A stretch of 32,252 nt of DNA from positions 507,983 through 540,234 of the forward strand of contig CP070722.1 of NCBI GenBank assembly GCA_020350785.1, read 5' to 3'. Source of the stretch: Gemmatimonadota bacterium (GTDB lineage: Bacteria; Gemmatimonadota; Gemmatimonadetes; Palauibacterales; KS3-K002). Below are positions 3,746-32,116 of this stretch, in pieces. The position numbers were made by a program, and so were the translations under genes. Positions within the stretch are counted from its first letter, which is position 1. Each line of letters starts with the position of its first letter. Below the pieces are notes generated by a model that saw only the letters and a list, made by a program, of their open reading frames with translations, was not told where the DNA came from and ran no database searches.

Positions 3746-4876
3746 ATGACGGAAACTGAAGACCGTTTGTCCGGGCGGCTCACTTCGCTGGACGCATTTC
3801 GCGGCGCGACCATCGCCGCCATGATACTTGTCAACAACCCGGGCAGTTGGTCGCATGTCTATGCGCCGCTGCGGCATGCCCCCTGGCATGGCTGGACTCC
3901 CACCGATCTCATATTCCCCTTTTTCCTGTTCATCGTCGGCGTGGCCATGCCGATATCGTTTGGCAGGCGCCGGGAACGCGGGCAGTCGCGGCGCCGGCTG
4001 TTCCGCCACGTTCTACGCCGTAGCCTGATCCTTTTCGGGCTGGGGCTGTTCATGGCCAGCTTCCCGACCTTCAGCGAGTGGGGCTCGCTTCGCATCATGG
4101 GCGTCCTGCAGAGAATCGGCGTCGTCTACGCGATCGCGGCCACGCTCTACCTGACTGTGGGGCCGCGCTCCAGATGGGCGGTTGTCTGGGCTCTCTTGCT
4201 CGGCTACTGGGCGGCCCTGACCCTGGTGCCGGTGCCCGGCTTCGGAAGCGGGGATCTGTCGCCGGAGGGCAACCTGGCAGCCTACATCGACCGGATCACC
4301 CTAGGGCAAAGTCACCTCTGGCAGGCGCGCGCCTGGGACCCCGAAGGTCTGCTCAGCAGCTTGCCGGCCGTTGCCACTTGTTTGCTGGGAGTCTTTACGG
4401 GTGAGTGGATCCTGAGTTCACGGAACCGCGAGCTGAAAGTGCGGGGGCTGGCTGCTGCCGCGGCGGCTGCGGTCGGCCTGGGCTTGACCTGGGATCTGCT
4501 GTTCCCGGTCAACAAGAACCTGTGGACTAGCTCGTATGTCGTGCTCACCGCCGGAATGGCCGGGCTGGTGCTGGCGGGCTTCTACTGGCTGATCGAGATC
4601 CGCGGCCGGCGCGCCTGGAGCAAGCCGTTCGTCATCTACGGGATGAACGCCATCGCAGTCTTCGTGGCTTCCGGCCTGCTGACGCGCCTGCTTGTCCGCT
4701 GGCAGGTCCCCTCAGTCGGCGGCACGAGGTCGGTCTACACCTGGATATATGATGAGGTCTTCGCCTCGTGGGCCGGACCCCTCAACGGGTCGCTCCTCTT
4801 CGCGCTCTCCTACATCCTCTTCTGGCTGGCCGCAATGTGGGTGCTCTTCAGGAAGGGAGTGTTCGTCAAGATCTGA
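3746..4876 (+). CDS. HGSNAT-like membrane acetyltransferase (DUF5009/DUF1624-type acyltransferase)
   Basis: Integral membrane protein of 376 residues with about ten hydrophobic segments. Seen: SLDAFRG at 14-20 (the 'RxxSLDxxRG' opening of this acyltransferase group), RHAPWHGWTPTDLIFPFFLF at about 43-62, and LRIMGVLQRIGVVYAI in the third or fourth segment. These match the human lysosomal heparan-alpha-glucosaminide N-acetyltransferase, where the equivalent His (here His44, in 'HxxWxGxTxxDLIFP') is the acetyl-carrying residue. The family moves acetyl groups from cytosolic acetyl-CoA across the membrane to an amino sugar. The bacterial acceptor is unknown; an envelope or catabolised glucosamine-containing glycan is an inference, helped by the NAGPA-like gene just upstream. 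The start ATG has AGAGGA about 10 bp upstream. The gene ends at a 329 bp gap. Confidence 0.88.
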   Translation: MTETEDRLSGRLTSLDAFRGATIAAMILVNNPGSWSHVYAPLRHAPWHGWTPTDLIFPFFLFIVGVAMPISFGRRRERGQSRRRLFRHVLRRSLILFGLGLFMASFPTFSEWGSLRIMGVLQRIGVVYAIAATLYLTVGPRSRWAVVWALLLGYWAALTLVPVPGFGSGDLSPEGNLAAYIDRITLGQSHLWQARAWDPEGLLSSLPAVATCLLGVFTGEWILSSRNRELKVRGLAAAAAAAVGLGLTWDLLFPVNKNLWTSSYVVLTAGMAGLVLAGFYWLIEIRGRRAWSKPFVIYGMNAIAVFVASGLLTRLLVRWQVPSVGGTRSVYTWIYDEVFASWAGPLNGSLLFALSYILFWLAAMWVLFRKGVFVKI

Positions 4877-6001: not shown

Positions 6002-6115
6002 ATTCTTCAGGTGTTGCCGTGCACAGTTTGTCTATGGCCCGCGCACGGCCGCGCGGCGGCCTGCGTCGCAGGCGTGCACTCACACTTAGCTGGCAACTGG
6101 GCAAAGGCCTGGCTG

Positions 6116-8320
6116 ATGTCAGACGGCGAGCAACAGATGGAGGTTCGACGGGACGATAGCGGCGGACGCGGGGCTGCTATTCGGCTCGCCGCCTACAGCT
6201 TTCTCATCCTCTTCTTCGAGCTGGCTCTGATCCGCTATCTGCCCGCCACGGTCAGGTTCTTCTCCTACTACATCAACCTCGTACTGATCGCCACTTTCGT
6301 TGGCATGGGGGCCGGCCTGCTGGCCGTTCGCCAGGTGGATCGGTTGCGCTGGGCGTTTCCGGTGCTGGCGCTCCTGGTCGTCGCGCTGGCCCGCCGGTTG
6401 GCCGACGTGCCGGTAATCGCGCCGCAGGATCCTGATGAGTTCCTTTGGGCCAACTTCTACGACACGTCAGAGGCGGCGGTCGCGCTCGGACTTGTGCCCA
6501 CTGTGGGAGTGCTCTTCGCCGCCTGCGCGGTCTTTTTCGTACCGTTGGGCGCGATGTTGGGCGAAGAGTTCAGACGCTTCAGATCCTTGGTGGCTTACTC
6601 CATCGACATCGCCGGCAGTCTTCTCGGCATCATCTGCTTCGGGTTGATCAGCTATGCGGGGTGGCCACCCTGGTCCTGGTTCGCGCTGGGCCTCGCCGTT
6701 CTGGCCGTGGTATCGCTTCAGCGGTTGCGGTATTCCGCCGCGACTGCGGCCTTCGGGGTTGCGGTCGTTGCTCTGCTGCTGACGGCGCAGAGCCCGACTG
6801 AGCGCTGGTCTCCCTACTATCGTGTCGACTGGCGCGAGGCCAGGGAGGCGGGCTACGCCGTCAACGTCAACGGCTCGATGCATCTGTCGATTCTCGACCT
6901 CTCTGAGGATGGCGCCCAGTCCGATCCTTGGGTGCAGGGCGCCAAGCTGAGCTACCTTGCCCCCTACCAGACGGCGGGCGATACGGTCCTGGTCCTCGGC
7001 GCCGGCGCCGGGAACGACGTCGCGCTGCTGCTCGACATGGGGGTCGAGCACGTCGATGCAGTCGAGATCGATCCGGTAATCGCAGAGATGGGTCGTGGTC
7101 TGCATTTCCAGCGACCGTACCTCGATCCACGTGTGAAGGTCCGGATCACGGACGCTCGCGCGTTTCTGAAGTCAACGGCAAGGAGGTACGATCTCGTCAT
7201 CTTCGGCACACTAGACAGCCAGACCCTGTTATCGGGGCTCAGCTCACTTCGCCTAGACAACTACGTATACACCCTGGAGGCGTTGCGATCGGCCCGCGCC
7301 CTCCTGTCGCCGGGCGGTCGGCTGGTCATGTACCACATGTCGCCGCGGGAAGACATCGCAGCGAAGATTTTCCAGACGCTGGCCATCGCCTGCGGGCGGC
7401 CGCCGATCGTCCACCACTGGCAGCCGCATCTTCTCTTCAACTTCGCCTTCGTCTGCGAGAACTCGGTTGTGCAAGCACCACGATTGCAGACTGTGGAGTA
7501 TCGCCTCCGCTTCCCGATCACCTTCCAGGCTGGCGGAGAGCGAGAACGGATGGAAGTGGTGAACGAGTCGCGACTCGCCGGTTATCCGGACTATCTGCTG
7601 CAAGATGTCGAGATACCTAGCGACGACTGGCCTTACCTCTATCTTCGGCGGCGAACCCTTCCGGCGGTATACATGGAAGGGCTGGCGTTGGTGCTTCTCT
7701 TCTCAGTTCTGCTCGTAGCGTTGGCCGGCGGTCGTCAAGTGCGCGGCGCTGCAGATCACCAAATGTTCCTCCTGGGTCTCGGCTTCCTGCTGCTGGAGAC
7801 GAAGAGCGTGACCGAGATGTCGCTCCTCTTCGGCTCGACCTGGGGCGTGAATTTGCTGGTCTTCTCTTCGATCCTGTTGATGATCCTGCTGGCCAACTGG
7901 CTGGTCCTGGCTCGGGGAAATGTGTCGCTCCGACCGGTCCTCCTCGCACTGCTGGCCAGCCTGATTGCGGGCTATGCGATTCCGGTGCGGGCGCTGGTGG
8001 GCTCGTCCGCCACCCTGGAGTGGATCCTCGGCGGTCTCTTTCTGGCGCTCCCGCTATTCTTCGCCGCCCTCACGTTCGCGACCCTGTTCAAAGAGCGGCA
8101 GAACTCCGTCCGGGCTCTGGGCTACAACTTGTTTGGTGCCGCCGTGGGTGGCGTGTTGGAGTATTCGGTCATGGTACTGGGTGTGAAAGCCCTGTACTTG
8201 ATCGCCGCCGCGGCCTATGGGTTGCTCTGGTTTTCATTATCGAGGTCCGGGCGCGGCGCCCTTGCCGGACGCATTGCCGGCCCGACAAGCGGGCCGCTAT
8301 CTTCGGCGGACCACATGTGA
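6116..8320 (+). CDS. Membrane protein with embedded spermidine-synthase-like Rossmann domain (paralogue A)
   Basis: 734 residues from the ATG at 6116. The frame is open upstream to a GTG at 6011, but those 35 residues are not membrane-like and begin 10 bp after a terminator hairpin, so I prefer 6116. Layout by eye: six or seven membrane segments (about 20-235), a soluble SAM-type domain (about 250-500), then six or seven more segments (about 540-725). Seen in the soluble domain: LVLGAGAGNDVALLL (nucleotide loop), VDAVEID (acidic ribose contact), ITDARAFLK, and YDLVIFGTLDS. In spermidine synthases the last segment reads YDxIxxDxxDP, where the first Asp is catalytic; here it is Gly364. True aminopropyl transfer is therefore unlikely. 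The first helix has FELALIR, matching YEILLVR in the second copy at 29711-32116. Function unknown. Confidence 0.85.
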   Translation: MSDGEQQMEVRRDDSGGRGAAIRLAAYSFLILFFELALIRYLPATVRFFSYYINLVLIATFVGMGAGLLAVRQVDRLRWAFPVLALLVVALARRLADVPVIAPQDPDEFLWANFYDTSEAAVALGLVPTVGVLFAACAVFFVPLGAMLGEEFRRFRSLVAYSIDIAGSLLGIICFGLISYAGWPPWSWFALGLAVLAVVSLQRLRYSAATAAFGVAVVALLLTAQSPTERWSPYYRVDWREAREAGYAVNVNGSMHLSILDLSEDGAQSDPWVQGAKLSYLAPYQTAGDTVLVLGAGAGNDVALLLDMGVEHVDAVEIDPVIAEMGRGLHFQRPYLDPRVKVRITDARAFLKSTARRYDLVIFGTLDSQTLLSGLSSLRLDNYVYTLEALRSARALLSPGGRLVMYHMSPREDIAAKIFQTLAIACGRPPIVHHWQPHLLFNFAFVCENSVVQAPRLQTVEYRLRFPITFQAGGERERMEVVNESRLAGYPDYLLQDVEIPSDDWPYLYLRRRTLPAVYMEGLALVLLFSVLLVALAGGRQVRGAADHQMFLLGLGFLLLETKSVTEMSLLFGSTWGVNLLVFSSILLMILLANWLVLARGNVSLRPVLLALLASLIAGYAIPVRALVGSSATLEWILGGLFLALPLFFAALTFATLFKERQNSVRALGYNLFGAAVGGVLEYSVMVLGVKALYLIAAAAYGLLWFSLSRSGRGALAGRIAGPTSGPLSSADHM

Positions 8321-8508
8321 ATGTGAGAGAGGAGTACCGGATTCCGAGGATGCTTTCAAGAAGGCCGGGGCGACCATGCATCCTTTTGACCCGTGAGCGC
8401 ATCATTATATTGGGGTGACAAACTCCGCATGGCAGGCCGGCCTGGTGGGCAACGACTCTCTCTGGCCGTCCGAGGGGTGATTCCCAAGACCCTACAGGCA
8501 ATTACTTG

Positions 8509-10383
8509 ATGATCAGCGATAAACCCTCGCGGTTAGGTCTCTTCCTGGCGGAGCTCAAGCGCCGACACGTGTGGCGGGCGATGATCGCCTATGCGGCCGC
8601 GGCTTTCGTCGTACTGCAGACAGCAGAGATAGTCCTTCCGGCGTTCGACGCGCCTGCCTGGGGGATGCGTGTATTGGTGCTGCTGACGCTGCTGGGCTTG
8701 CCCATGACCTTGGCTCTGGCCTGGGTCTACGAGATAACGCCGCAGGGCATCAGGCGGACTGAGGATCTGGAGACCCCGCTTCGTGGCCATACGCGTCCTG
8801 GCCGTATGATGCCTCGCGTGGCCTTTCTGGGGCTAACGCTGGCGACGGTCGCGGTCGCCGGCTGGTGGATGGTGCGCTGGACGGTTCCGGAAGACGCTGG
8901 CCCCGGTGGGGTGGAGGAGTTCAGCGCGGTGCCGGCCCCGGCAGCCTTGGCTGAAGTCGGACCCATCCGCTCGCTGGCCGTTCTACCGTTCGAGAGCTTC
9001 GCCGAGGACGCCCAGCCGGACTACTTTTCCGCCGGCATGCACGAGGCGGTCATCGCGCAGCTCAGCCAGATCTCGGCGCTCAGAGTCGTCTCGCGGACCT
9101 CCGTGATGCGCTACGCCGGAACGACGCTGTCGGTGCCGCAAATCGCGCGCGAGCTGAACGTCAGAGCGGTCGTTGAAGGGTCGGTGCTACGAGCCGGCGA
9201 CCGCGTCCGGATTACCGTTCAGCTGATCGATGGTCGGACCGACGATCACCTGTGGTCGCAGGTCTACGAGCGTGAGCTCGAGGATGTCATCGCTTTGCAG
9301 AGCGAGGTCGCTCGCGCCATCGCCGCGGAGATCGAGGCTGAGCTGACGCCGGAGGAAGAGACGCGTCTGGCTTCCACGGTGCCAGTCGACCCCGAGGCGT
9401 ACGATGCCTATTTGCGAGGTCGCGAAGAGCAGGCGAAGGGAACGGTCGAATCCCTCGAGGAGGCGAAGGGTCACTACCAGGTAGCGGTCGAGGAGGATCC
9501 ATCCTTCGCCGCCGCCTACACCGCCCTCGCCGGCACCCGGGTCCTTCTGGGTATCAGCGACTCGACCCGCCTCGAGGAGTTCGCGCCTGCGGTCCAGGAG
9601 GCCCGGCGCGCCCTGGAGCTGGATAGCAGCTCGCCCGAAGCGCAGGCGGTACTGGTGGAGATTCAGCGGCGACTGACGCAGAGAGCGGATTCGCTGCAAA
9701 GGCAGGTCCGGATTGCAGTGCCGGGGCTGGACTCTCTTGTGGCTCCAAACGCCGAATTCGTGGTGGAGCTGAGCGAGTTCGGCCGTCAGGTGCAGGAGGT
9801 CGCGCTGGCGCCGAAGGTCGGTACCCGGGCTAGCTTGGGTACCGAGCGTGAGGTGGGGATGGCGCGCCACCTTGCCGGTTCGGGTCAGTACGAGGCCGCC
9901 GAGGGGGTGCTTCGCGGTTTGTTGGACGCTGATCCCAACCTGGAAGCGGCTTGGGATGCCTTGGAATATGTCCACACCGTCCAGGGCGACTACGAGGGCG
10001 CCGTGGCGGTTCGTGCCGAGCGAGTGGAGCGAGAGGGTCACGGTGCCGAAGAGCGAGCCGCGCTCGGCCGACTGCGGGAGCGCATCGCTGCTGATGGAGA
10101 GCGCGGGTATTGGGAGTGGCGTCTGCAGGAGCTGAGCGACAAGGAAGATACCGGCGAAGAAGTGTCGCAGGTGGATATCGCTTCCACCCTGGTGCACCTG
10201 GGTCGCCGTGACGAAGCGCTCGACCGCCTGGAACGGGCGCGTGCCGAACGTGACCCAAAGTTGGCCTTGTTGATGAGCGACCCGACTTGGGATCCTCTGA
10301 GGGGCGAGCCACGATTCCGCGCGCTGTTGGTCGGGCTGCGCAAAGTTCATGTGCGCCCGCCGTCACCGCCCGATAGGCGCTGA
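8509..10383 (+). CDS. FlgO/TolB-like domain and TPR membrane protein (kinase-less)
   Basis: 624 residues. N-terminus: ELKRRHVWRAMIAYAAAAF opens a first membrane segment (about 24-44), with a second at 54-74 followed by the usual 'AWVYEITPQGIRRT', and a third at about 103-122. Then comes a FlgO/TolB N-terminal-like domain (about 152-278): SLAVLPFESF, DYFSAGMHEAVIAQLSQI, LRVVSRTSVMRYA, ARELNVRAVVEGSVLRAGDRVRITVQLID and DHLWSQVYER. After VDPEAYDAYLRGR (about 294-304) come degenerate TPR repeats to the C-terminus. This architecture is often found fused to serine/threonine kinases or CadC-type DNA-binding domains; here neither is present. The likely role is sensing or protein-protein scaffolding at the membrane, which is inferred. 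The start is ATG 8509, preceded directly by an in-frame TTG (8506); the ribosome site is weak. Confidence 0.88.
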   Translation: MISDKPSRLGLFLAELKRRHVWRAMIAYAAAAFVVLQTAEIVLPAFDAPAWGMRVLVLLTLLGLPMTLALAWVYEITPQGIRRTEDLETPLRGHTRPGRMMPRVAFLGLTLATVAVAGWWMVRWTVPEDAGPGGVEEFSAVPAPAALAEVGPIRSLAVLPFESFAEDAQPDYFSAGMHEAVIAQLSQISALRVVSRTSVMRYAGTTLSVPQIARELNVRAVVEGSVLRAGDRVRITVQLIDGRTDDHLWSQVYERELEDVIALQSEVARAIAAEIEAELTPEEETRLASTVPVDPEAYDAYLRGREEQAKGTVESLEEAKGHYQVAVEEDPSFAAAYTALAGTRVLLGISDSTRLEEFAPAVQEARRALELDSSSPEAQAVLVEIQRRLTQRADSLQRQVRIAVPGLDSLVAPNAEFVVELSEFGRQVQEVALAPKVGTRASLGTEREVGMARHLAGSGQYEAAEGVLRGLLDADPNLEAAWDALEYVHTVQGDYEGAVAVRAERVEREGHGAEERAALGRLRERIAADGERGYWEWRLQELSDKEDTGEEVSQVDIASTLVHLGRRDEALDRLERARAERDPKLALLMSDPTWDPLRGEPRFRALLVGLRKVHVRPPSPPDRR

Positions 10384-28976: not shown

Positions 28977-29705
28977 ATGCGGCGACGGATTGCGGCGATA
29001 GTCAGCCTGGCGCTTTTGCCACCACTCGTTGGCGTGGTGGGCGCTCTGAAGCGCCAAGACTCGCAGGCGGAGCGCTACGAGAACGAGCGTCTCGCCATGG
29101 TGCGGCAGATCGAGCAGTACGGAGTGCGCGACTCCGCGACTCTCGCCGCCATGCGGTCGGTGCCGCGCCACGATTTCGTGCCGCGCGAGCAGCGTCGACG
29201 CGCCTACGGGGACCACCCGCTTCCTATCGGTTACGGACAGACCATCTCCCAGCCCTACATCGTGGCCTATATGACGGAGATCCTGGAACCGGAGCCGGCG
29301 ATGAAGATCCTGGAAGTGGGCACCGGCTCCGGTTACCAGGCGGCTGTGCTCGCGGATATCGGTTGCGCCGTCTACACGATCGAGATCTTCGAGGCTCTCG
29401 CCGATAGCGCGCGCTTGCGACTCAGGCGGCTCGGCTACGACAACGTCTTGGTGCGGCACGCGGACGGTCACTACGGCTGGGAGGAGGCGGCTCCCTTCGA
29501 TGCCGTCATTGTCACCGCCGCCGCTGGGTTCATTCCGCCGGCGCTGGTCGATCAACTGAAGCCGGGTGGCCGGATGGTGATTCCGGTGGGCAGCGTCTAC
29601 GGCGTACAGAACCTCATCTTTCTGGAGAAGGACACCAGCGGTGACGTGCGAACGCGAAACCTGCTTCCCGTGCGCTTCGTGCCCATGCTGAAAGGGCTTC
29701 GCTGA
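28977..29705 (+). CDS. pcm: Protein-L-isoaspartate O-methyltransferase with N-terminal export/anchor segment
   Basis: 242 residues. PCMT transfers a methyl group from SAM to isoaspartyl residues in damaged proteins so that they can revert to aspartate. Seen: RHDFVPREQRRRAYGDHPLPIGYGQTISQP (the family's 'VPR..FVP......AY.D.PLPIG.GQTISQP' block), MKILEVGTGSGYQAAVLA (SAM loop), VYTIEI, FDAVIVTAAAGFIPPALVDQLKPGGRMVIPVG. All core motifs are intact. Unusually, residues 1-24 read basic-hydrophobic (MRRRIAAIVSLALLPPLVGVVGAL), a signal peptide or membrane anchor. Exported or anchored PCMTs are found in several Gram-negatives, where the source of SAM is a puzzle. It lies 72 bp after the ferredoxin-anchor gene and 5 bp before the next gene, so the operon is likely. 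Confidence 0.93.
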   Translation: MRRRIAAIVSLALLPPLVGVVGALKRQDSQAERYENERLAMVRQIEQYGVRDSATLAAMRSVPRHDFVPREQRRRAYGDHPLPIGYGQTISQPYIVAYMTEILEPEPAMKILEVGTGSGYQAAVLADIGCAVYTIEIFEALADSARLRLRRLGYDNVLVRHADGHYGWEEAAPFDAVIVTAAAGFIPPALVDQLKPGGRMVIPVGSVYGVQNLIFLEKDTSGDVRTRNLLPVRFVPMLKGLR

Positions 29706-29710
29706 ATCGA

Positions 29711-32116
29711 GTGACAAGGTACTCGCGGCCGCTTGCCATTGCGCTCATCTCGGCCAGCACGCTCTCCTACGAGATCCTCCTGGTACGAATCTTCGCCATC
29801 GAACAGTTCCATCACTTTGCCTACATGGCGATCGGCGTCGCCATGTTGGGCTTTGGTGCGAGCGGGACGCTGTTGGCGCTGGCAGGCCGAAGGCCGGAAG
29901 CCCAGCTCGAGCGCTGGTACTCTCGCTCGGCGCTTGCGACGCCACTCGCGCTGATCGCCAGCGCTACGCTGGTGCACCTTGTACCGCTGGACGCCACCCA
30001 ATTGCTCTGGGATAGCGGCCAGTGGCCGCGACTCGCCGCGGTCTATCTCTTGCTGGCTTTGCCCTTCGGTGTCGGTTCTCTGCTGATCTTGCTCTCCTTG
30101 ACGCTGGAGCCGGAGCGCGCGGGCACGCTTTACGGGGCGAGCTTTCTGGGGGCGGGACTCGGTACGGCGCTGGCCGTGGCGGTGCTGTGGCTGGCGCTCC
30201 CAAATCGAGCGCTGGCTGCGCCGGCACTCGTGGCGGCTCTAGGAGCCTTGGCCGCTCAAAGCGGCGTGAAGATCCGCTACAAGGCTGCCGCCTGGGCCAT
30301 AATCTTGTTCGCCGCGGCCGTGTACGTGAAACCGCTCTGGCGTCTCCAAATGATTCCCTACAAAGGCCTGCCTCAGGTCGAAGCGTATCCGCAGGCGCGG
30401 CGGATAGCAGAGCGAAGCAGCCCGCTGGGCTGGGTCGTTGCGGTCGAGGCGGATGCCTTCCGCCATGCTCCGGGACTGTCGCTGGCCTTTCGCGGGACGT
30501 TCCCGCGACAGGCGGCCCTGTTCGTCGATGGAGAGGTGGCTGGGGCGGCGAGCGATTGGGGAGGCAACAGCACCGCCAGAGCTCTACTCGACTGGCTGCC
30601 CACGGCCATGCCCTACGCCCTCGGAAAACCGGAAGGTGTGCTGGTGCTGGGTGCCGGTGACGGAATGGAAGTGTGGAGCGCCTTGGCGCATGGCGCCGAT
30701 CGAGTGGTCGCATCCGAACTGAATCCGCAGCTCGTTGAGCTGGGTGCCTGGAGCACCGACGCCTCTCCCGTCCGCGGCGGCCCCGCGCCGGTCGATTGGG
30801 TGATCGGCGACGCGCGAGCCTACGTCGCCCGTTCGGAGGAACGCTTTGAGCTGATCACGCTTGGTGCGGGTCATGGCCTTGGTGCGGCCGCCGCCGGTGT
30901 GCATGCGCTCAACGAGGATTTTCTACATACGGTCGAGGCCTACGTCAGCTACTTGGAGCACCTGACCGACAATGGAGTGCTCTCGATCACGCGCTGGCTG
31001 ACCGTGCCACCGCGGTCGAACGTGCGCGTCATTCTCACGGTGGCCGAGGCGCTCAGGCGCGCGGCGCCCGCTGCGCTAGCCGACGGGATGGTGGTTGCAA
31101 GGAGCTGGGCGACTTCGACGGTGCTGGTCAAGCCGTCGGGTTTCGCGCCCGAGGAAGTGGCGAAGCTGAAGAGCTGGGCAGAGCTGCGCCGCTTCGACCT
31201 CGATTGGTACCCCGGTACAGGGCAGCACGAGACTCAGTTCAACGTCTTGGATGAGCCGACGCTATTCGAAGCGATGAGTGCGGCTGTCGCGGGTACCGAC
31301 TCGATCTCCGCCTTTGTAGCTGCCTACCCGTTCCATGTGGCGGTGGCCACTGACAGTCGCCCCTATCCCCATCACTTCCTGAGGGCAAGATCTCTGCTGG
31401 GCTTCTTACGTGGCAATCGGGGCGCCATGCTACCGTTTGCCGAGTGGGGCTACGTAGCCCTCGTCGCTACTCTGGCCCAAAGCGTGCTCTTTGCCGCAGT
31501 GCTGATGCTTGTTCCGGCGGCCCTGCGCGCCGGGGAAATGGGGCGGGGAGGGTGGTGGCTGGTTGTAGTGTACTTCGCTTCTATCGGGTTCGCCTATCTG
31601 GCTGCCGAGGTCGCCGCCATCCAGCAGTTGAATCTCCTGCTGGGTCATCCTGTCTACGCGGTGGCGGCGGTGTTGTCGGCTTTTCTTGTCTGCTCAGGTA
31701 TCGGAAGCATATGGTCGGATCGACGTCCCGCCCGAAGCGGTTGGCATGCCGGAGTTGTGATCGCGCTTTTGCTGTCGATATATGCGGCTCTGCTGTTATT
31801 CCTGATCCATCAACTCCAGCCTCTGCATCTAGCGATCCGGGCGTTGACGGCGACTCTGGTCCTGGCTCCGCTGGCCTTCCTGATGGGCCTGCCGTTCCCT
31901 CTGGGGCTTCGTGTTCTGACGGGCGAGGGCGCCGTGGCTTGGGCCTGGGCCGCTAATGGCTTCGCCTCGGTAGTCGCGACCCCGTTGGCCGCGCTGATAG
32001 CCCTGGATGCCGGCTCGCCGGTCTTGTTCTTACTGGCCGCGGCGGCCTACGCCGGTGCGGGGCTGACGCTCCGCCGCGCAGCGCGGCGGAGCGGAGCAGT
32101 TCTGCTGCAGACCTAG
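29711..32116 (+). CDS. Membrane protein with embedded spermidine-synthase-like Rossmann domain (paralogue B)
   Basis: 801 residues from a GTG 5 bp after the pcm stop. Layout by eye: N-terminal membrane region (about 5-225, seven or so segments), a soluble SAM-type domain (about 240-560) and a C-terminal membrane region (about 575-795). Seen: TLSYEILLVRIFAIEQFHHF in the first helix, VLVLGAGDGMEVWSAL (nucleotide loop), VVASELNPQLVELG (acidic contact), WVIGDARAYVA, and FELITLGAGHG where spermidine synthases carry YDxIxxDxxDP. Both Asp residues are lost (Gly385 and a His), so it is not expected to be an aminopropyltransferase. It shares architecture and the E-x4-R of helix one with the gene at 6116-8320. 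Its role may be linked to the molybdoenzyme and PCMT genes ahead of it. It shares its stop bases with the convergent gene. Confidence 0.85.
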   Translation: MTRYSRPLAIALISASTLSYEILLVRIFAIEQFHHFAYMAIGVAMLGFGASGTLLALAGRRPEAQLERWYSRSALATPLALIASATLVHLVPLDATQLLWDSGQWPRLAAVYLLLALPFGVGSLLILLSLTLEPERAGTLYGASFLGAGLGTALAVAVLWLALPNRALAAPALVAALGALAAQSGVKIRYKAAAWAIILFAAAVYVKPLWRLQMIPYKGLPQVEAYPQARRIAERSSPLGWVVAVEADAFRHAPGLSLAFRGTFPRQAALFVDGEVAGAASDWGGNSTARALLDWLPTAMPYALGKPEGVLVLGAGDGMEVWSALAHGADRVVASELNPQLVELGAWSTDASPVRGGPAPVDWVIGDARAYVARSEERFELITLGAGHGLGAAAAGVHALNEDFLHTVEAYVSYLEHLTDNGVLSITRWLTVPPRSNVRVILTVAEALRRAAPAALADGMVVARSWATSTVLVKPSGFAPEEVAKLKSWAELRRFDLDWYPGTGQHETQFNVLDEPTLFEAMSAAVAGTDSISAFVAAYPFHVAVATDSRPYPHHFLRARSLLGFLRGNRGAMLPFAEWGYVALVATLAQSVLFAAVLMLVPAALRAGEMGRGGWWLVVVYFASIGFAYLAAEVAAIQQLNLLLGHPVYAVAAVLSAFLVCSGIGSIWSDRRPARSGWHAGVVIALLLSIYAALLLFLIHQLQPLHLAIRALTATLVLAPLAFLMGLPFPLGLRVLTGEGAVAWAWAANGFASVVATPLAALIALDAGSPVLFLLAAAAYAGAGLTLRRAARRSGAVLLQT
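32067..32093. repeat. Near-perfect GC palindrome at the end of a convergent gene pair
   Basis: CGCTCCGCCGCGC and its exact reverse complement flank one central A (13 bp arms, 32067-32079 and 32081-32093), ending 21 bp before the shared stop codons. It is read as coding for Arg/Ala-rich residues, yet its symmetry and position suggest a two-way transcription barrier. There is no T-tract on either side. Confidence 0.6.

Follow-up and report, generated by a model that had tools for sequence, protein, structure and literature searches.

A membrane protein of 734 residues, encoded by a Gemmatimonadota bacterium and found with its relatives across many bacterial phyla, carries a domain that has the fold of spermidine synthase (SpeE) but lacks the acids with which that enzyme holds its amine. 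Its gene lies on the forward strand at positions 6116-8320 of the window, by which we mean the whole stretch of 32,252 nt of contig CP070722.1 that was analysed and within which all positions are counted, and its product is called paralogue A to tell it from a second, related protein (paralogue B) encoded on the same stretch. Its residues speak against an ordinary spermidine synthase, and the loss of the catalytic Asp is family-wide among the aligned rows; this widespread membrane protein is probably a different, uncharacterised enzyme. The reading we favour, tentatively and as one that may well prove mistaken, is that of a transferase dependent on S-adenosylmethionine (AdoMet), most likely a methyltransferase, in which a SpeE fold set between two membrane halves of seven helices each faces outward. 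That outward orientation is the most surprising point of the analysis.

The SpeE-like domain, its residues and its family

The open reading frame (ORF) is open from an in-frame GTG at 6011 (6011-8320, + strand), and translation from the ATG at 6116 gives the protein of 734 residues; this ATG is a plausible start because the full-length homologues of the phylum align from about residue 12-26 onward. The features of the gene, some of which were drawn from an AlphaFold2 (AF2) model, are these:

6116-8320, + strand: coding sequence of the 734-residue membrane protein (paralogue A), with its ATG start at 6116
6155-6784, + strand: N-terminal membrane half, seven helices, residues 14-223 (AF2 model, hydropathy, charge statistics)
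6800-7645, + strand: SpeE-like (PF01564) Rossmann domain, residues about 229-510, putatively extracytoplasmic (domain from Pfam, phmmer, AF2, fold and profile; side from charges)
6998-7018, + strand: glycine loop GAGAGND, residues 295-301, with Ala298 in place of the Asp/Glu of GxG(D/E)G
7064-7072, + strand: Glu317-Ile318-Asp319, of which 317 is the ribose-binding acid of SpeE
7151-7153, + strand: Asp346, the adenine-binding Asp of SpeE (alignment)
7205-7258, + strand: catalytic-Asp column (Gly364), Asp367, mobile gate loop and Arg379-Leu380-Asp381 (phmmer, family alignment, AF2)
7664-8278, + strand: C-terminal membrane half, seven helices in the model, residues 517-721 (AF2 model)

By sequence and by fold the nearest relatives of the domain are spermidine synthases. 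Pfam PF01564 (Spermine_synth) matches residues 289-371 above its cut-off (E 2e-7), and the methyltransferase models match weakly; a phmmer search of the Protein Data Bank (PDB) sequences with the single protein finds spermidine synthases as the closest solved proteins (E 4e-7), and the family profile finds spermidine synthase at E 2e-17 and human METTL13 at E 8e-5. The AF2 model superposes on SpeE 3anx with Z 20.1 and a root-mean-square deviation (rmsd) of 3.3 over 255 aligned residues, and human METTL13 is also matched by fold (Z 15.7). The aminopropyltransferase models of NCBIfam stay far below their cut-offs (34.7 of 260 bits for the equivalog), although the SpeE of the same genome, with canonical residues, likewise falls under that equivalog cut-off at 123.8 of 260 bits.

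An initial annotation of this DNA had reported that the domain keeps its nucleotide loop and its EID motif, and both are there, GAGAGN at residues 295-300 and EID at 317-319. Its central claim, that glycine replaces the catalytic Asp and that the second Asp of the motif survives, is borne out by the phmmer alignment to solved SpeE, in which 'IFGTLD' of the window protein stands opposite 'IIDTTD' and 'IIDLTD'; the alignment has no gap there, which puts Gly364 (codon GGC, 7205-7207) in the catalytic Asp column and Asp367 (codon GAC, 7214-7216) in that of the second Asp. What had been overlooked is that the Asp/Glu of the glycine loop is lost as well, its place being taken by Ala298. In the available text on Arabidopsis SPDS1 (PMC6514230), Asp131, Asp201 and Gln107 hold the aminopropyl amine, Asp201 is positioned to deprotonate putrescine, Asp182 holds adenine, and a residue of the gate region, Asp204, makes contact with the polyamine; matched motif by motif to that account, Ala298 corresponds to Asp131, Gly364 to Asp201, Asp346 to Asp182 and Asp367 to Asp204. 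The profile alignment places Gln107 at about residue 276, in a gapped stretch of the family alignment, and Gln does not predominate in any column from 270 to 285; Leu281, considered as the place of this pocket Gln, was not borne out. The gate loop, residues 368-380, is disordered in the AF2 model (pLDDT under 50), and the same text describes it as disordered in most ligand-free aminopropyltransferases (PMC6514230); Asp367 and the acid at 381 lie in or beside it.

The family is large. A scan of genome_contigs (one genome per species) with the single window protein returned no match; a 20-row alignment was used as the query afterwards (A1, taken from 23 rows of the phylum, with L016, L019 and L020 left out, their ORFs lacking the first part), and at tblastn E 1e-3 this gave at least 518 relatives among at least 588 stretches. 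The best 80 of these relatives were kept, and distant ones may belong to sister families. By their record titles, mostly of metagenome-assembled genomes, the best 80 loci come from more than 20 phyla, the names including Gemmatimonadota, Acidobacteria, Chloroflexi, Verrucomicrobia, Omnitrophota, Planctomycetota, Actinomycetota, Proteobacteria, Myxococcales, Melainabacteria and others. Within the phylum of the window a match at E 1e-20 occurs in 22 of 298 genomes, and within the family of its organism 3 of 8 genomes match, its own genome being counted in both. An unannotated 5.3-kb record titled 'Bacteriophage sp.' holds a further relative over 78% of the query (MT838436.1:1349-2941), which is perhaps bacterial DNA in a virus bin.

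Conservation was read from a 77-row alignment, made of the window protein and rows from 76 of the 80 loci (L044, L055, L081 and L114 gave no family ORF, and some rows, L115 and L043, are partial), and from an 80-row alignment that adds three named plasmid relatives. Column 364 is Gly in 51 of the 80 rows, Ala in 27 and Ser in 2, and is never acidic; column 298 is Thr in 39, Ser in 25, Ala in 7, Met in 4, Gly in 2, Pro in 1 and Asn in 1, with one gap, so that 0 of 79 residues are acidic. Both amine-holding acids are absent throughout the alignment, and the earlier judgement that the residues speak against spermidine synthase is upheld. As to whether Gly364 itself is conserved, what is kept is a small residue, glycine not being strict; the 23 rows of the phylum, window protein included, agree, with Gly in 22 and Ser in one. 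Other positions are kept to a high degree: columns 346, 367 and 379 are Asp, Asp and Arg in all 80 rows, column 381 is Asp or Glu in 80 of 80, Asp301 is present in 79 of 79, the ribose acid at 317 is Glu in 73 and Asp in 6 of 79, and G295, G297, G299, D301, D319, D346, R348, D367 and R379 are each kept in 73 to 77 of the 77 rows. In the 80-row alignment Gly364 occurs mostly together with Asp381 (48 v 3) and Ala364 mostly together with Glu381 (22 v 5), a pairing that could reflect a contact or two old clades, and for which ancestry alone may account.

Elsewhere in the genome an ordinary SpeE, with GGGDG and CDLPDP, is encoded at C1:305341 with a match to AdoMet decarboxylase (SpeD) a few hundred bases away; with the two side by side, the organism need not depend on the window protein for its polyamines, and on its residues together with these separate SpeE and SpeD genes the identity of spermidine synthase was rejected. 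The initial annotation had also expected that such proteins would often be labelled spermidine synthase, and one case is at hand, WP_007015716.1 on the Novosphingobium plasmid pLA5 (L117), which is so annotated and has Ser at 298 and Ala at 364; on the 'often' the analysis covered this one case. Near this plasmid gene lie two class I S-adenosylmethionine methyltransferases, a VTT-domain protein and a family 2 glycosyltransferase.

The membrane halves and the side of the domain

That the domain sits between two polytopic membrane halves, another point of the initial annotation, is seen in the AF2 model built from the 20 rows, which has seven helices, the domain and seven more helices (pLDDT 83.3, pTM 0.87), and again in the model of a relative 33% identical to it (L109), which has the same order (pLDDT 82.6, pTM 0.87). 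Plain hydropathy gives seven peaks in the N-terminal half of the window protein and five in the C-terminal half, besides a false one within the domain. Since seven helices precede it, the domain must lie on the opposite side of the membrane from the N-terminus, and the question becomes which of the two is inside.

Membrane-proximal positive charges, from which we infer that the domain lies outside the cytoplasmic membrane, were counted in 70 of the 77 rows, 7 being dropped for lying outside the length limits. When Lys and Arg are counted in the eight residues next to the helix cores, a statistic chosen after the whole-loop result was known, all 70 rows favour, by their N-terminal half, an inner N-terminus and an outer domain, and the C-terminal half, taken separately, also places the domain outside in 70 of 70; on average the charges at 13 of the 14 helices favour that side. 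A count over whole loops agrees for the C-terminal half (69 rows for, 0 against, of 70). Two relatives extend beyond the first helix, L061 by two additional helices at its N-terminus, positively charged on the inner side, and L101 by a stretch resembling a signal peptide followed by one helix, and both extensions, as their sequences read, fit a helix 1 that starts inside. The fold alignments, of which only the range ends were considered, give a further hint on the side of the domain: 24 of 50 rows start at residue 107-112 of the window model, and many at 114-120 of L109; these points fall within the long loop that joins helices 3 and 4, a loop that parity assigns to the domain's side of the membrane. 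Cysteines are rare in the domain (at most one in 55 of the 70 rows), which proves nothing about the side it is on. Near-invariant polar residues of the membrane part are commoner in its outer half (10 of 219 positions) than in its inner half (2 of 186; p 0.04, halves assigned by hand), and all near-invariant residues are distributed 20 of 219 and 10 of 186 (p 0.18), a weak outer bias of the polar residues that is suggestive at most. Near-invariant residues of the C-terminal half include E561, W576, N671 and E682.

The membrane part itself probably resembles transporters of the major facilitator superfamily (MFS), a likeness that comes from the model. The window model aligns with NorC (7d5p), a 14-helix MFS transporter, at Z 19.7 and rmsd 4.5 over 315 residues, spanning model residues 19-715 at 10% identity, and with SLC15A4 at Z 16.7 and rmsd 4.8 over 356 residues; this match to MFS transporters comes from one of two models. 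The genome also encodes two more membrane SpeE-like proteins, L032 (G000:C1:1990164) and L034 (G000:C1:1332732), both above the cut-off of NF037959, 'fused MFS/spermidine synthase'. Like the window protein they combine membrane helices with a SpeE domain, but their hydrophobic helices stand before the domain only, whereas the window protein has them on both sides, and the membrane parts of the two kinds have no relation in sequence. NF037959 gave no match for the window protein at E 1, and for the Novosphingobium relative a weak one (20.5 of 40 bits). L032 has seven helices ahead of its SpeE domain, which would likewise lie outside should these helices begin inside.

Possible chemistry and competing explanations

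Since the acids that hold the aminopropyl amine are gone and the contacts to ribose and adenine are kept, the ligand is likely to be AdoMet rather than its decarboxylated form. At column 298, 64 of 79 rows have Thr or Ser, as is usual in ordinary class I methyltransferases; Methyltransf_25 matches 15 of 20 members at E 0.01, and Spermine_synth all 20. By analogy with known SpeE scaffolds that lack the glycine-loop acid, methyl transfer is the most likely activity of the family. In the available text of PMC3725402, the D103I exchange of Datura spermidine synthase, at the position of column 298, leaves aminopropyl transfer undetectable and brings low methyl transfer from AdoMet, which further changes raise, and plant putrescine N-methyltransferase is a SpeE fold turned to AdoMet by losing the same glycine-loop Asp. 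Unlike the window family, with its Gly or Ala, the plant enzyme has no exchange listed at the catalytic Asp (D173) in that text, which mentions no membrane part either (PMC3725402). Fungal NHMT (AN4663), an established methyltransferase located in the endoplasmic reticulum (ER), modifies the N-terminal histidine of secreted enzymes; as far as its features are described in the available text, it resembles the window protein in having seven helices followed by a SpeE-like domain without the glycine-loop acid, Ile standing at that column, and loss of its helices abolishes methylation (PMC10349129). It consists of the seven-helix segment and the soluble domain only, the second membrane half being a feature of the window protein, and its authors place the seven-helix segment in filamentous Ascomycota and one unclassified fungus (PMC10349129). 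They also raise the possibility that a limited supply of AdoMet in the ER acts as a bottleneck (PMC10349129). With SpeE itself (PF01564; 3anx, 1uir, 3o4f, 6o65) the window protein has in common the fold, the ribose acid, the adenine Asp, the second gate Asp and the disordered gate loop, but the aligned members of its family lack the catalytic Asp and the acid of GxG(D/E)G, and its domain is set between membrane halves.

In the reading we favour, the domain would bind AdoMet outside the cytoplasmic membrane, with the N- and C-terminus inside, and would pass the methyl group to a substrate in the envelope, in secretions or in the outer leaflet; the MFS-like part would either pass AdoMet out to the domain or present the substrate. 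The methyl transfer and this role of the membrane part are the least secure steps. A fuller version, in which the enzyme supplies itself, its MFS-like part exporting AdoMet to an outer domain that methylates or alkylates envelope or secreted molecules, we hold to be doubtful.

Several points weigh against an outward-facing AdoMet transferase with an MFS-like membrane part. The top fold matches are SpeE and not methyltransferases, and we found no reported activity for any member of the family. An outer domain would need AdoMet outside the cytoplasm, for which we know of no evidence in bacteria. The count of seven helices in the C-terminal half rests on AF2, where hydropathy sees five; the charges are neutral at helix 13 (15 rows for, 14 against) and favour the outer side weakly at helix 8 (35 rows for, 15 against); and the whole-loop count left the N-terminal half ambiguous (32 for, 25 against), one loop of 34 residues weighing heavily in it. 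As to the membrane part, the 50 rows listed for the second model (L109) hold SpeE-type and methyltransferase chains and no MFS chain, no Pfam MFS model matched the window protein at E 1, and its halves compared by hhalign with the MFS_SpdSyn proteins of its own genome did no better than shuffles. Nor, over the 80 loci, does any recurrent neighbour gene point to a substrate.

One alternative is that the domain is cytoplasmic after all and is an AdoMet-dependent methyltransferase whose substrate, a membrane lipid or a quinone-like molecule, is bound by the membrane halves. The cytoplasm is where AdoMet is made, the changes in the pocket fit methyl transfer, the membrane part has near-invariant polar residues, and the C-terminal helix count depends on the model; yet the charges oppose it in 70 of 70 rows for each half and, on average, at every helix except the neutral thirteenth, and the N-terminal extensions of L061 and L101 fit a first helix that starts inside, for which reasons we regard it as unlikely. 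If the outer position and the kept adenosine contacts are taken together with the MFS-like fold of one model, the protein could instead be a transporter with a built-in outer receptor, its domain binding AdoMet, methylthioadenosine or a polyamine and handing it to an MFS-like importer with no catalysis. The gate residues that go beyond ligand binding (Asp367, Ser368, Arg379 and acid 381) show much the same degree of conservation as the ligand loop, however, which suggests chemistry, and with no MFS family match besides, this account is rather improbable.

Little probability is given to an aminopropyltransferase in which other acids, Asp367 and that at 381, stand in for the lost ones. SpeE is the closest fold, both acids are present in 80 of 80 rows, and residue 364 varies in step with 381 as described above; but that pairing may be mere ancestry, both amine-holding acids are absent in the aligned members, an ordinary SpeE stands next to SpeD in the genome, and the D103I spermidine synthase was without aminopropyl transfer (PMC3725402). 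The loss of two active-site acids of SpeE might equally be taken as the mark of a degenerate domain with a structural role only, to which we give just as little weight, the nine residues from G295 to R379 being highly conserved over many phyla.

Neighbouring genes, paralogue B and implications

No conserved neighbours of the family were found. Among blastp clusters in the 80 loci none beyond the family itself occurs in more than 4, and no Pfam family matched more than 2 of the 79 neighbours scanned, these being part of 95 candidates that are themselves part of 147 flanking ORFs; ten ORFs of the window, set against the ORFs of the 80 loci, gave three matches in three loci. The ORF caller was a simple greedy one, by which small genes may be missed. 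In the window, a gene downstream of paralogue A (8506-10383, +) encodes a protein of 625 residues with TPR repeats and a weak TolB_N match, to which no link from paralogue A was found, and 3746-4876 (+) encodes a homologue of NagX/HGSNAT-like membrane acetyltransferases, with HGSNAT_cat above its cut-off and the NagX equivalog below its own.

The second protein of the kind lies near the far end of the window, after a PCMT-family gene at 28977-29702:

29711-32116, + strand: paralogue B, 801 residues, related to paralogue A over the SpeE-like domain and the C-terminal membrane half

Paralogue B meets the family profile at E 2e-18 over the domain and the C-terminal half, including the Glu of the 'ETK' helix, and hhalign relates it to the C-terminal half of paralogue A at E 7e-6, the N-terminal halves showing no relation in sequence. 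Its glycine loop, GAGDG, keeps the Asp, but neither Asp of D-x-x-D is there (LGAGHG). The two proteins thus seem to represent separate branches within a single wider group.

Among the papers listed by searches of the open-licence PubMed Central (PMC) literature there was no bacterial account of this architecture, and with at least 518 relatives the group at risk of a wrong name is a large one. If the version in which the enzyme supplies itself is true, AdoMet chemistry would take place outside the cytoplasmic membrane in many bacterial phyla, by way of a single polypeptide; and if the domain does face out, one would have to ask by what route bacterial AdoMet gets outside, and fungal NHMT in the ER would have a bacterial counterpart.

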